DNA from: Caulobacteraceae bacterium
GTDB lineage: Bacteria; Pseudomonadota; Alphaproteobacteria; Caulobacterales; Caulobacteraceae
Direction: 5' to 3'
Assembly (NCBI GenBank): GCA_019695035.1
Contig: JAIBAU010000001.1
Span: forward strand, 124,001-188,000
Length of the DNA stretch: 64,000 nt
Shown here piece after piece: positions 33,423-38,449 of this stretch; the first letter of the stretch is position 1, and every line of letters starts with the position of its first letter. The notes beneath the pieces were generated by a model that had not been told where the DNA came from, searched no databases, and was given only the letters and a program-made list of their open reading frames with translations. Both the position numbers and the translations under genes were made by a program.

Positions 33423-34319
33423 CTAGGGAACCTGATGAGTGTCCGACGCCACGATGTACTTGGGCGTGGGCGGGCTAGGCGGCGCAGGCGGCATCGGCGG
33501 CATGGGCCGCCGGACCACGAACGCGGTCGCCGGGCAGACCCGGGGCTTGAGGCCCGAGGGCAGGCGGGTCGTCCCGTCGGAGCAGGCTGCATTGACCTGC
33601 GCCTGGGTGAGATGCCGGGCCGTCGAAAGATCGGCGCTGCGGAGGTCGGCGCGGTGCAGCGAGGCCCCGGCGAAGTCGGCGCCGCGGAAGGTGGCCCCCT
33701 TCAGGGTCGCCTGCCCGAGACCGGCCTCACGAAACGAGGCGTTGTCGAAGTTGCCGCCCGCCAGGGTCGCCATCTGCAGCTGGGCGTCGTTGAAGTTCGC
33801 GCGCTGGGCCGACACGCGCGAAAGGTTCGCGTGCTGCAACTCCGCCTCGGCGAAATTGGCGCGGGTGAGGATCGCCCCGCCGAACTGCGCCGTCTGCATG
33901 GCGACGCCGGAGAGATTGGCGGAGGTCAGATTGGCCCGCATGAAGACCGAGCCGGGGGCCTCGGCGCCGTCGAGCCGCGCCGCGACAAAAATCGCGCCCG
34001 AGAAGTTCGAACCCACCATCTCGGCCTGACGCAGGTCGGCGCGAGTGAAGTCGCTCCCCGAGAAGTTGGAGCCGATCAGCTCCGCGCCGCGTAGATCCGC
34101 CCCAATCAGGGTCGCGCCCTGGAAGTTGGCGGAAGCGAACGACGCCCCGATCAACTTGCGGCCCGACAGTTCGCACCCCTGGCAGTGGCCGCCGAAGGTG
34201 ACGGTGCGGGCGACGTCCTGATCGCCCATTCCGGCCTGGGCCGCGCCGGCAGCCAGGCCCAGTGAAAGGGCCGCGCCAGCCGCGAAGGCGAATTTCGCGA
34301 GAGGGGAGGATCGCTTCAT
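33423..34319 (-). CDS. Exported pentapeptide-repeat protein (first of two)
   Basis: 298 residues from the ATG at 34319 (MKRSSPLAKFAF...). An ATG nine residues upstream would spoil the signal. A signal peptide ends near AAQA-GMG. The mature part starts with HCQGCELSGRKL and continues as about 25 A(D/N)Lxx-type pentapeptides, forming a right-handed quadrilateral beta-helix. It is closed by a cap with LTQAQVNAACSDGTTRLPSGL and a Cys. A Pro-rich tail of about 35 residues follows. Pentapeptide solenoids are protein-binding scaffolds; a DNA-gyrase mimic is unlikely because this one is exported. The neighbouring gene is a relative with the same ends. Confidence 0.85.
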   Translation of the reverse strand: MKRSSPLAKFAFAAGAALSLGLAAGAAQAGMGDQDVARTVTFGGHCQGCELSGRKLIGASFASANFQGATLIGADLRGAELIGSNFSGSDFTRADLRQAEMVGSNFSGAIFVAARLDGAEAPGSVFMRANLTSANLSGVAMQTAQFGGAILTRANFAEAELQHANLSRVSAQRANFNDAQLQMATLAGGNFDNASFREAGLGQATLKGATFRGADFAGASLHRADLRSADLSTARHLTQAQVNAACSDGTTRLPSGLKPRVCPATAFVVRRPMPPMPPAPPSPPTPKYIVASDTHQVP

Positions 34320-34356
34320 GGACCGAGAGATGAGGCCTCGCGCCAACGGAAGCCAC

Positions 34357-34394: not shown

Positions 34395-34886
34395 CTAGCG
34401 GCAGCGGGGGATGCGGAGCCCGGCGGGCAGCCGGGTGGCCTCGTCGCCGCACGCCTGGTCGAGCCGGGCCTGCGTCAGGCCTCGCGCCCGATCCATCTCG
34501 GCGCCGGAGAAATTCGCGCCGGTCAGGGTGGCGCCCGAGAAGTTGGCCCCCTGCAGATAGGTTCCGACGAAAGTCGCGTTGGTCAGGTTCGCTCCTGCGA
34601 AGCTGGCCGACGAGAACAGCGCGCCGTAGGCGTTCACGTCGCGCATGTCTGTCGCGGAAAAGTTCGAGCCGTTGAAGATGCCCAGGCTCAGGTCGGCCTG
34701 TCGCAGGCGCGCATGAGAAAAGTTCCGGGACTTCAACGTCTTGCCCTGCAGGTCCGCCTGGAAAAGGTTGCAGCCCGCGCAATTGGCGCCGCGCTGGGCG
34801 GACGCGATCTGCGAAGCGTTCTGGGCCAAAGCCGGGAAGGCCAGGGCCACAGCGAAAACCGCCGCCATCGACAGGATTTGCTTCAT
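34395..34886 (-). CDS. Exported pentapeptide-repeat protein (second of two)
   Basis: 163 residues from the ATG at 34886 (MKQILSMAAVFAVALAFPALA-QNA). After the signal peptide it has ANCAGCNLFQADLQGK and then about 15 pentapeptide repeats (for example ANFSGATLTGANFSGA). It ends in a cap LTQARLDQACGDEATRLPAGL and a final Cys. The Cys-x-x-Cys start and the cap match the neighbour, so both belong to one periplasmic subfamily. The gap to the next gene is 75 bases, so separate promoters are possible. Function unknown. Confidence 0.85.
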   Translation of the reverse strand: MKQILSMAAVFAVALAFPALAQNASQIASAQRGANCAGCNLFQADLQGKTLKSRNFSHARLRQADLSLGIFNGSNFSATDMRDVNAYGALFSSASFAGANLTNATFVGTYLQGANFSGATLTGANFSGAEMDRARGLTQARLDQACGDEATRLPAGLRIPRCR

Positions 34887-34954
34887 TGTCCGCCTCGCAC
34901 GCAATCGGTGGCGAGGCCCTGCAGGAAATGGGCCAGTGAACCGACGTCGAGGGA

Positions 34955-37801
34955 CTACCCCGTCATCTCCGGCGCCGCGCCGCAGTGTTCGCAGGTGAAC
35001 CCCGCTCCGCTCGGCTTCAGCGCCAGTTCTCCGCACGTCGGGCACATGGCGTTGTGGCGGGTTTCGGTGCGGTCTTCGCGGGGTTTCCGGGCGCCGAAGT
35101 TTGCGACCACCAGGTTGTCGGGGGCCGTGCCGCGGGCGAAGCCCTTCGAGATGAACAGGGATGCCGGGACGGCCTCGGGCTCTTCCTGAGCGTCCTCGGC
35201 GCCTTCCCCTTCCTTCGCGCCGCGCCCCAGTCCGTCTGCATGGAGGGCGTCGGGGTCAGCGTTGGCGAGGTCGGTACGGTCGAGGTAGCTGACGGCCAGT
35301 TCGCGGAAGATGTAGTCTAGGATTGAAGTCGCCGACCTGATGGAGTCGTTGCCGGTGACCCGGCCGGCGGGCTCGAAGCGGGTGAACACGAAGGCGTCGA
35401 CGAATTCCTCGAGCGGCACGCCGTACTGGAGGCCGATCGAGATCGCGATGGCGAAGTTGTTCATGAGACTGCGGAAGGCGGCGCCTTCCTTGTGCATGTC
35501 CAGGAACACTTCGCCGAGTTCTCCGTCCTCATACTCGCCGGTGTGCAGATAGACCTTGTGGCCGCCCACGGCGGCCTTCTGGATGTACCCCTTGCGCCGG
35601 TCGGGCAGCTTGCGCCGGGCGCGCTCGCGTTCCACCACGCGCTCGACGACGCGTTCGACCGTGCGCGGCTCGGGAGCGGGCGGGGGCGCTTCGTTCCGCA
35701 ACGGATCGACACGCGGGAGATCCAGGGTGTGCAGGGCCGGCGGGTTGGCGCGGGCCAGGCGCACGGCGCGCAGGCCCGCAGCCGCGGCCGCCGACTGGAC
35801 GCGAACTGCGTCGGCGCCGGTGCTTCGCCAGTCCAGCGGAATTGCGATCTGGGACGGGGTGGAGGCAAACGTCTCGAGGGCGGCGGCCATGGCGAGTCGA
35901 TCCTCACGGGTGGGGCCGGAGAACAGGCCTTTCAGGTCACCGGGGAGGTCCGGCCAGTCGGCCAGGCTTCCGGCCCCCTCGACCCAGGCGGCGGCCTGCT
36001 GGATCTCGCGGGAGCCAAATCCCAGACGTTCGAGGGGGTCGAATCCCGGCTCAGCCAGGACCTCGGCGGGGACACCCAGAACGTCGCGCAGGAAGCCCTC
36101 GCCCAATACATGGGCTGAGAAGGCCGCGCGAAGGCTGGCTCCCCGGGTAAGCGCGTCCTCGACAGCGCCCAGTTCGAAGTCGGTAAGGCCCTTGGCGCGC
36201 AGGGATTCGTGGCCGAGGGCGGGGGCGCCGAGCAGGGTCCGCCGGCCCAGGGCGTGGGCGGCCGCCTGATCGACGTCCGCACCTGCGCCGGCGAGCGATA
36301 GGAAGGCCTGGTCCGAGAGGGTCGGAACGACCTCTCCATCGGCCGTCTCGACCACCGTCAGGGGGCCACTCCAGGGGGCCGGGCCCAGGCCGCCCGCTGA
36401 AAGTCGGAGCTCAAGATCCGCATCCTCAAAGAGGGCGGTGACCTCGGCGTGGCGGAGGCCGGTGCGTACGGCCGTGGCCAGCGCCTCCCGGTAAAGATTG
36501 GCTGCCAGCGGCGCCAGGCTGGCGTCCACGCCGGCGGTCGCCTCGGCCGAAGTCGAGACCGCCGTCAGACGGGCCTCGCGATCCTGGGCGTATTCCGGAT
36601 AGGCTCCGATCCGGGCGGCGATCTCGGCCGAGGTGGCGACTGCCGCCGCATCGAACAGGGCGAATAGTCCGCCGGCGCGAATGCGGCCGCTGTCGGCGCC
36701 GAAGTCGAGGCCTTCGCGTGCAAGGATGTCCCCGAGTCCCGCCAGGGTAAGAGCAAGCGGCCGAAACTCGGCCCGCAACCGGGCCTGATCAAAGTCGGCG
36801 GCGTAACCGGTGGCCGCCTCGATCTCGAGGGCGACGGTCCAGAGGCGGACAGCGGCCTCCATGGCCGCGGGTTCGAGAAGCCGGGCGGCGTCGAGGGCGG
36901 CCCTGGGCGCCAAGGGCGCGCGCGCAAGGGCTTCTGCGTCCCGTGCGTCGAAGGCAAGGGTCAACCGGCCGGTCTCCGCCCCTGCGCGGGCGGCCTCGGC
37001 AGCCTCCGGACCCCCGGCCTCAACAAGGTCTCGGGAGGCCAGCGCCAGCAGCGGGAAGGGCAGCGGAACGGGCGACGGATTAGAGTCCCATCCGCAGCCG
37101 ATGCTCTGCGCCGACGCGATAGCCGCCAGGATCAGCCCGTCCGATGCGCCGGCCTCTCGTGCGGCCAGGGCGGCCCGGGCAAGCGCGGTGTTCTGGGTCG
37201 GGTCACCGCAGACCCGAGCGTCGCCGTCGCAGCGTTCAACGGCGTCGGCGACCGCCGCCAGGCGTGCGGCCAGCAGGTCGGCGGCCTCGACCGCCAGCCT
37301 GGCCCCTCGCGCGTCAGCCACGTGCCGCCGGACGGCCGCGGTGAACTCGAGGTCCGAGAGCGACAGGAGCGGGGTCTCGTGACGCGCTGGCAAGCGGTCT
37401 TCGGCGATCGGATGCACCCGCGCCCCGCCGGGCCGCTGCGAGCCCGGGGCGGCGATGCCGAGAGCTATGGTGGCGAAGAGCTCGTGGGCGAACACCTCGG
37501 CATCTTCCGCACGGTCAAACAGGCCAATGGCGAACCCCCAGGCGGCGAGGCGCCGCGCATAGCGAGCGGGACCCCCGCCAAGCAGCGGGTCGACCGGCTT
37601 GTCCGGACTCAGTGCGCCGGGCTCGAGGTTGGGGTGGTCGGCCGGCAATTGCTCAGCCCAGTCGAGCCAGGCCTCGACGCGGGTCGACGACCAGCTCCGC
37701 GGGGTCTCCACCTCAACGACACGGCCGGCGCGCTCGATCTGGCGCCGTTCGCGCTCGATGGCCGGGGCGTCCTTGCCGGCGAAGATCCGTTCGAAACGCA
37801 C
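34955..37801 (-). CDS. Degenerate homologue of vitamin B12-dependent ribonucleotide reductase (TSCPD domain protein)
   Basis: 948 residues from a GTG at 37801 with GGGGGAGG upstream. The C-terminal 220 residues (from about 729) match the end of class II reductase NrdJ closely: [61 protein letters not shown] and a zinc ribbon CPTC...CEHC. The N-terminal 700 residues align only loosely. [26 protein letters not shown] and [24 protein letters not shown] correspond to reductase landmarks. The active-site block (NxCxE with radical-site cysteine and glutamate) is missing where it should precede AVRLWTV. It is thus probably not a reductase but a pseudoenzyme or regulator. A normal nrdJ is not in this window. 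Confidence 0.8.
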
Positions 37802-38050
37802 GCGCGCCTCCCCCGAAGGTGGTCACGCGAAGGCTAACCCCCTCGCGCGCGAGTTCCAATAAATCTGGTAGGTTCTGGCCGGTTACCCACAAGATGTTGC
37901 AGGTCTGGCTCTTTTGGCGAGCTCCGGCCTCACCTTGGGCGGGGCTTCGACGCCGAGGCCGAAATTGGCGGCCGCACCGAAGTCGCTGTGGACGCTAACC
38001 CCCGCTCCGGCCTATACGGACCCATCGGTTTCCAACGGACTCGCGCTCTC

Positions 38051-38449
38051 GTGCTTTCCAAGATCTTCACCTGGTGGAACGGCGCCACCCTTGGCACGCT
38101 GTGGACCATCGGCGTCAACGGCAGAAAGGTCGGCCAGGACGAGTTCGGCAACCGCTATTTCGAGGCGCGCACCAACAAGAATTCCTACGACGGCCGCAAG
38201 CGCCGCTGGGTGATCTTCAATGGCTATGCCGACGCCTCGAAGGTCCCGCCGGATTGGCACGGTTGGCTGCACCACACCTTCGATGAGCCGCCCACCAAGG
38301 CTCCTCTGCCTCGCCGCCGGTTCGAGCTGGATCATCTGCCCAACCTGACCGGCACCCCCTATGCGTGGCGCCCCAAGGGCTCCATCGCCCGCGGCGGCGA
38401 GCGCCAGGCGGCGACCGGCGACTACGAGGCCTGGAAGCCGGCGGAATGA
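38051..38449 (+). CDS. NADH:ubiquinone oxidoreductase accessory subunit, NDUFA12 family
   Basis: 132 residues from the GTG at 38051 (LSKIFTWWNGATLGTLWTI), the usual opening of the family. A GTG at 37988 adds 21 residues of unlikely sequence. The signature NRYFEARTNKNSYDGRKRRWVIFNG near residues 33-57 and PPDWHGWLHHTFDEPPT near 66-82 define PF05071. In alphaproteobacteria and mitochondria this small subunit sits on the complex I peripheral arm. The stop overlaps the next ATG (ATGA), so it is coupled to the DUF2155 gene. Confidence 0.9.
   Translation: MLSKIFTWWNGATLGTLWTIGVNGRKVGQDEFGNRYFEARTNKNSYDGRKRRWVIFNGYADASKVPPDWHGWLHHTFDEPPTKAPLPRRRFELDHLPNLTGTPYAWRPKGSIARGGERQAATGDYEAWKPAE

Follow-up and report, generated by a model that had tools for sequence, protein, structure and literature searches.

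What is left for a ribonucleotide reductase (RNR) gene to do once the residues that carry out the reduction are gone? This question is raised by an open reading frame in a 64 kb stretch of DNA from a Caulobacteraceae bacterium (64,000 nucleotides, the whole of which is referred to here as the window). Its product, called pseudo-NrdJ below, resembles the class II, B12-dependent reductase NrdJ and is encoded once in a 2.9 Mb genome that is 99.98% complete. The N-terminus, VRFERIF, lines up with the MRxxRRF start of its relatives. Pfam recognizes a fragment of the RNR barrel (residues 312–457) and a TSCPD domain (residues 745–836, 8e-10), and the NCBIfam NrdJ model NF005736 gives 416 bits, below the cut-off of 1737; canonical NrdJ proteins of sister families score 1838–1998 bits with the same model. 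An initial annotation of this DNA had remarked that the NxCxE active-site block is absent ahead of AVRLWTV and that cysteines are very few, and both remarks are borne out. AVRLWTV occupies residues 317–323, with a second, 16-residue landmark at 353–368, and 14 other residues stand where the block is expected (Table 1). The 948 residues include seven cysteines, and the zinc ribbon accounts for four.

Table 1. Features of the pseudo-NrdJ locus, in coordinates of the window
Feature	Position	Strand	Basis or remark
Pseudo-NrdJ coding sequence	34955..37801	(-)	948 aa, GTG start, frame open end to end
N-terminal remnant, residues 1–310	36872..37801	(-)	Alignment, residue counts
Finger-loop replacement, residues 291–304 (14 residues where NxCxE is expected)	36890-36931	(-)	Alignment
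Barrel remnant, residues 311–690, predicted RNR fold kept, sequence eroded	35732..36871	(-)	AF2 model
TSCPD/IscU-like domain, residues 732–850, near-invariant	35252..35608	(-)	Pfam (TSCPD, 9e-11), shared positions, dN/dS
Zinc ribbon, residues 915–945, Cys 920/923/937/940, shuttle Cys pair lost	34967..35059	(-)	Alignment
NrdR-like box, + strand CAATAAATCTGGTA	37857..37870	(-)	Consensus match
NrdR-like box, + strand CACAAGATGTTGCA	37888..37901	(-)	Consensus match
Divergent NDUFA12-type neighbour gene, marks the conserved nrdJ slot	37988..38449	(+)	Pfam, synteny

To judge the extent of the loss, 38 non-catalytic proteins were aligned by sequence with 20 canonical ones; the relatives came from genome contigs and from complete sets of genes of genomes in the family and the order. 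The radical cysteine with the asparagine and glutamate of NxCxE, both redox cysteines of the active site, and both shuttle cysteines of the C-terminus are each present in 20/20 canonical proteins and in 0/38 of the others. The initial annotation had allowed that the radical cysteine, the redox pair and the glutamate might still be located in the N-terminal part; at residue level, none of them was found in this alignment. The loss in pseudo-NrdJ goes beyond point changes, as the blocks with the first redox cysteine, GSGTGxNFS and SGGG are deleted outright, and the substrate and effector blocks of NrdJ are gone. All four zinc cysteines are retained in 35 of the 38 non-catalytic proteins, and the zinc ribbon is lost in three. 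Judged from the proteins aligned, the pattern is no chance effect, since all of the non-catalytic Caulobacterales relatives in the comparison show it.

Two smaller features of these proteins may be recorded here. A cysteine pair in the motif RCxG...CxDP, residues 191 and 198 (window 37199-37240), is conserved in nearly all non-catalytic members from Caulobacteraceae and is absent from an Asticcacaulis-like group and from all but one of the members from other families. The same Asticcacaulis-like group (L008, L087, L097 and relatives) has kept the C-terminal domain and has lost the whole zinc ribbon.

The locus itself indicates where the gene came from. The order aroQ-accB-accC-aat-DUF2155-NDUFA12 on one side and two pentapeptide genes followed by aspS on the other is the same around the pseudo gene and around canonical nrdJ, which occupies this slot in families f5 and f4; the NDUFA12 side is found in more distant Alphaproteobacteria as well. 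Since the slot is identical, the pseudo gene is taken to be nrdJ itself, altered in place, and comparison of gene order and sequence establishes that the 948-residue frame descends vertically from class II nrdJ and has stayed in its place. The non-catalytic form is present in 113 of 119 Caulobacteraceae genomes, covering 20 of 21 genera, and in three further families of Caulobacterales (f2, f3 and much of f4), and canonical NrdJ of 1200–1350 residues is retained in f5 and part of f4. All non-catalytic sequences form one clade inside Caulobacterales NrdJ in a maximum likelihood tree, with a bootstrap of 59% at the node that leaves out a canonical f4 sequence (L120) and 100% for the clade that includes it. 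A single origin of the non-catalytic form across the families is thus most likely on the evidence of the tree. Clean deletions, with NDUFA12 abutting the pentapeptide genes and no remnant in between, were observed in two genera, g16 and g30, and in some genomes of g3 (L127–L134); they arose in several lineages, so the gene is dispensable there. A link to B12 use was considered and rejected. The PduO-type adenosyltransferase (PF01923) is found in 31 of 31 genomes, with or without pseudo-NrdJ, and the distribution of the BtuR type (PF02572) does not match that of the gene; losing the gene is therefore no consequence of losing B12 use.

How strongly has the remaining protein been constrained? The C-terminal TSCPD/IscU-like domain (C-domain) has a mean identity of 86% within the non-catalytic group, 81% within the canonical group and 79% between them, compared with 29%, 63% and 24%, respectively, for the barrel. 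Canonical and pseudo proteins have 62 positions of the C-domain in common, and only two class-specific changes were found in it, both conservative (residues 822 and 837). The end of the protein had been described as matching the canonical enzyme almost word for word, and this holds for residues 732–850 but not for the zinc ribbon, which kept its four metal cysteines and lost the two shuttle cysteines. In close pairs dN/dS is 0–0.13 for the C-domain, 0.06–0.35 for the barrel remnant and 0.08–0.39 for the N-terminal part; a lone value of 0.6 came from a 50-codon fragment, and all regions of usable length lie below 0.4. A dN/dS comparison of the two parts, as the initial annotation had suggested, thus indicates purifying selection throughout, strongest in the C-domain. 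Neither a broken frame nor neutral evolution, the marks of a pseudogene, was found, as the frame is intact and dN/dS is 0–0.39 in relatives. All four families have intact frames, and among the Caulobacteraceae matches listed a single one contains internal stops. At the level of sequence, these data establish pseudo-NrdJ as an intact coding gene kept under purifying selection. Because the C-domain is conserved alike in both groups, its job seems to be unchanged although reduction is gone.

The promoter region provides a second line of evidence. The gene is preceded by two NrdR-like boxes, 31 bp apart, the sole pair scoring at least 18 of 24 in the window; the pattern was written by us from general knowledge of NrdR sites, and the sites are consensus matches on a scale with a maximum of 24. 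A pair at 31 or 32 bp lies upstream of the gene in 48 of 48 Caulobacteraceae loci (mean 19.4/24, minimum 17). Order-1 shuffles gave a mean of 12.8 and a maximum of 17, and random segments of the same loci gave at most 16. Box-like pairs were also found at nrdA and nrdB of the same genome, which encodes NrdR, and upstream of canonical nrdJ in outgroups. The pair is absent at loci with a clean deletion of the gene, and for this reason the boxes appear to serve pseudo-NrdJ; a role as promoter of the divergent NDUFA12 gene is ruled out. Some lineages have lost the pair despite retention of the gene, namely the non-catalytic f4 members and part of f2 and f3. At the level of consensus matches, pseudo-NrdJ of Caulobacteraceae carries a predicted NrdR-regulon promoter. 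An involvement in dNTP control, one of the roles first suggested for the protein, gains indirect support from these box-like pairs at pseudo-NrdJ, canonical nrdJ, nrdA and nrdB.

The main rival explanation is that the gene is a slowly decaying relic, redundant beside the class I enzyme NrdAB, with a drifting barrel, and survives solely because its loss is slow. The fall of barrel identity to 29% among pseudo members, the clean deletions described above, the missing zinc ribbon in 3/38 proteins and the loss of the boxes in several lineages would all suit such a history. It is opposed by the constraint and by the boxes. Frames are intact in four families, with the single interrupted match noted above; dN/dS is 0.06–0.39 even in the eroded part; the C-domain is as conserved as in active enzymes; and all 48 Caulobacteraceae loci retain the box pair. 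We therefore consider a relic unlikely.

Which reductases accompany pseudo-NrdJ? The genome encodes the class I protein NrdA with NrdB, plus an NrdZ-type class II enzyme, which has its NPCGE block intact, ends in a cysteine-bearing C-terminal tail of its own and scores above its family cut-off. A genome-wide search found no full-length NrdJ and no NrdJa partner; the barrel-family matches in the genome are only NrdA, NrdZ and pseudo-NrdJ. Across the order, NrdB is present in 149 of 150 genomes, with and without canonical NrdJ, so ribonucleotide reduction is covered. As this genome has no true NrdJ, the suggestion in the initial annotation that the protein regulates the true NrdJ is excluded here, and the pseudo gene in fact occupies the slot of NrdJ itself. 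Another possibility is that pseudo-NrdJ serves a two-chain reductase as the accessory half, as NrdJb does in the split class II RNR, and that NrdZ or NrdA borrows its C-terminal domain in trans. Both domains described for NrdJb, the IscU-like domain and the zinc finger (PMC9669993), are kept in pseudo-NrdJ, and NrdA is always, and NrdZ sometimes, present as a potential recipient. However, unlike NrdJb, pseudo-NrdJ has no NrdJa partner in its genome, keeps most of the barrel, and has lost the shuttle cysteines needed for re-reduction, as have all of the 38 non-catalytic proteins. NrdZ of this genome, with its own cysteine-bearing tail, passes its family cut-off, and most genomes with pseudo-NrdJ have no NrdZ-like match. 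A two-chain arrangement is consequently improbable.

One may also ask whether selection on the conserved stretch acts on a DNA or RNA element within the gene rather than on the protein. In Caulobacteraceae, synonymous divergence over the C-domain drops as low as 0.5 (window about 35363-35653), and a GsrN small-RNA pull-down in C. crescentus lists, at 11.3-fold, a segment internal and antisense to CCNA_01966 (PMC5869019). However, the conserved parts of aspS and accC from the same loci dip equally low, so codon bias is the likely cause of the low synonymous divergence, and different phyla use different codons for a conserved protein sequence. The folding z-score is just −2.1. A nucleotide element is very unlikely. 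A hairpin at KEGAAF was also considered as such an element and rejected, being mostly dictated by the protein sequence.

The AF2 model, built from a 41-sequence alignment, has a mean pLDDT of 79 and is confident over residues 1–690, with values mostly above 90 in the barrel remnant. Over residues 1–689 it matches NrdJ of R. sphaeroides (7b9q) with Z 38.7 and an rmsd of 8.2 for 634 aligned residues, and NrdJ of T. maritima with Z 30. In the model, the RNR barrel fold is retained over residues 1–689. The structural comparison proposed earlier thus bears out the fold, whereas the active-site residues were compared by sequence alignment only. The still predicted barrel would suit a protein that remains an active reductase via other residues, but with the radical cysteine, glutamate, asparagine and both cysteine pairs gone from all 38 proteins and the substrate and effector blocks deleted, this is scarcely credible. 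Modeled alone, the C-domain reached a pLDDT of 64 and consists of three strands followed by helices. IscU/SufE proteins top a weak list of matches to this model (best Z 5.0, rmsd 7.3, 108 aligned residues, at that pLDDT); the C-domain has no cysteine ligands. A Foldseek search of the C-domain against the PDB gave no significant match, and a sequence search of solved structures returned no relative of it, only zinc ribbons. The weak IscU/SufE matches are compatible with, but do not prove, the IscU-like domain described in PMC9669993, for which no role in canonical class II RNRs was reported.

Of the known systems, the large form of class II NrdJ (NF005736/PRK07562; R. sphaeroides, PDB 7b9p/7b9q) shares with pseudo-NrdJ the slot, the predicted barrel fold, the TSCPD/IscU-like domain, the zinc-ribbon cysteines and the NrdR-like boxes, and differs in the catalytic residues, the blocks and the profile score described above. 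Searches of open-access literature turned up no account of an NrdJ pseudoenzyme in bacteria. RNR pseudoenzymes are known in herpesviruses, where M45 of cytomegalovirus, derived from the RNR large subunit, puts the fold without catalysis to another use. M45 differs from pseudo-NrdJ in its class I R1 origin and unrelated descent, and it acts on host signalling for a eukaryotic virus.

A pseudoenzyme kept for binding or regulation, as the initial annotation had proposed, fits the loss of catalytic residues, the purifying selection, the order-wide retention and the conserved NrdR-like boxes. We think it moderately probable that pseudo-NrdJ, a vertical nrdJ descendant that lost catalysis, was kept as a predicted NrdR-regulated pseudoenzyme, acting in dNTP metabolism through binding by its C-domain. 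The radical-chemistry machinery was lost within Caulobacterales, most likely once, while class I NrdAB supplied reduction. Purifying selection has since kept the coding sequence intact and the C-domain almost as it was, and in Caulobacteraceae the gene retains a pair of NrdR-like boxes typical of an RNR promoter. The folded barrel remnant may present the C-domain, which would bind what it binds in canonical NrdJ, be it a partner, a nucleic acid or a ligand, and the role of the protein in dNTP metabolism would be exerted by this binding. Where the boxes are kept, the protein would be made alongside other RNR genes when NrdR is off. Its most likely use would be to tune or position the supply of dNTPs; that it does so through class I NrdAB is a guess. 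We put forward more tentatively, as a real possibility, that a bacterial RNR was turned, order-wide, into a protein without catalysis that regulates dNTP supply under the control of NrdR. If true, the TSCPD/IscU-like C-domain of large class II RNRs would be shown to have a function separate from reduction. In pseudo-NrdJ catalysis is gone and the C-domain stands at full conservation, so that what the domain does can be examined independently of ribonucleotide reduction.

These considerations extend to Caulobacter crescentus, in which CCNA_01966 is annotated as NrdJ and treated as a B12-dependent reductase (PMC6538847, PMC5869019). Contigs of Caulobacter sp. (L012, L013 and L017) carry the non-catalytic form, and CCNA_01966 is probably the ortholog of pseudo-NrdJ, judging from these relatives and from synteny (CCNA_01968 fits the slot) rather than from its own sequence. 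The protein annotated as NrdJ in Caulobacter would then be no reductase, and the reading of B12-dependent dNTP synthesis and of NrdR effects in this genus would change accordingly. A C. crescentus nrdR deletion mutant spreads in soft agar about 10% more than the wild type, and the nrdR fssC double mutant is synergistic (PMC12186491). Study of the C-domain is probably feasible in this tractable organism. The two secreted pentapeptide-repeat proteins next to pseudo-NrdJ (window 33423-34346 and 34395-34889, both on the (-) strand) are by position counterparts of CCNA_01968, the secreted pentapeptide protein PerA/YjbI of C. crescentus (PMC12864828, PMC7690452), a surface protein tied to the Cdz toxin and to antibiotic sensitivity.
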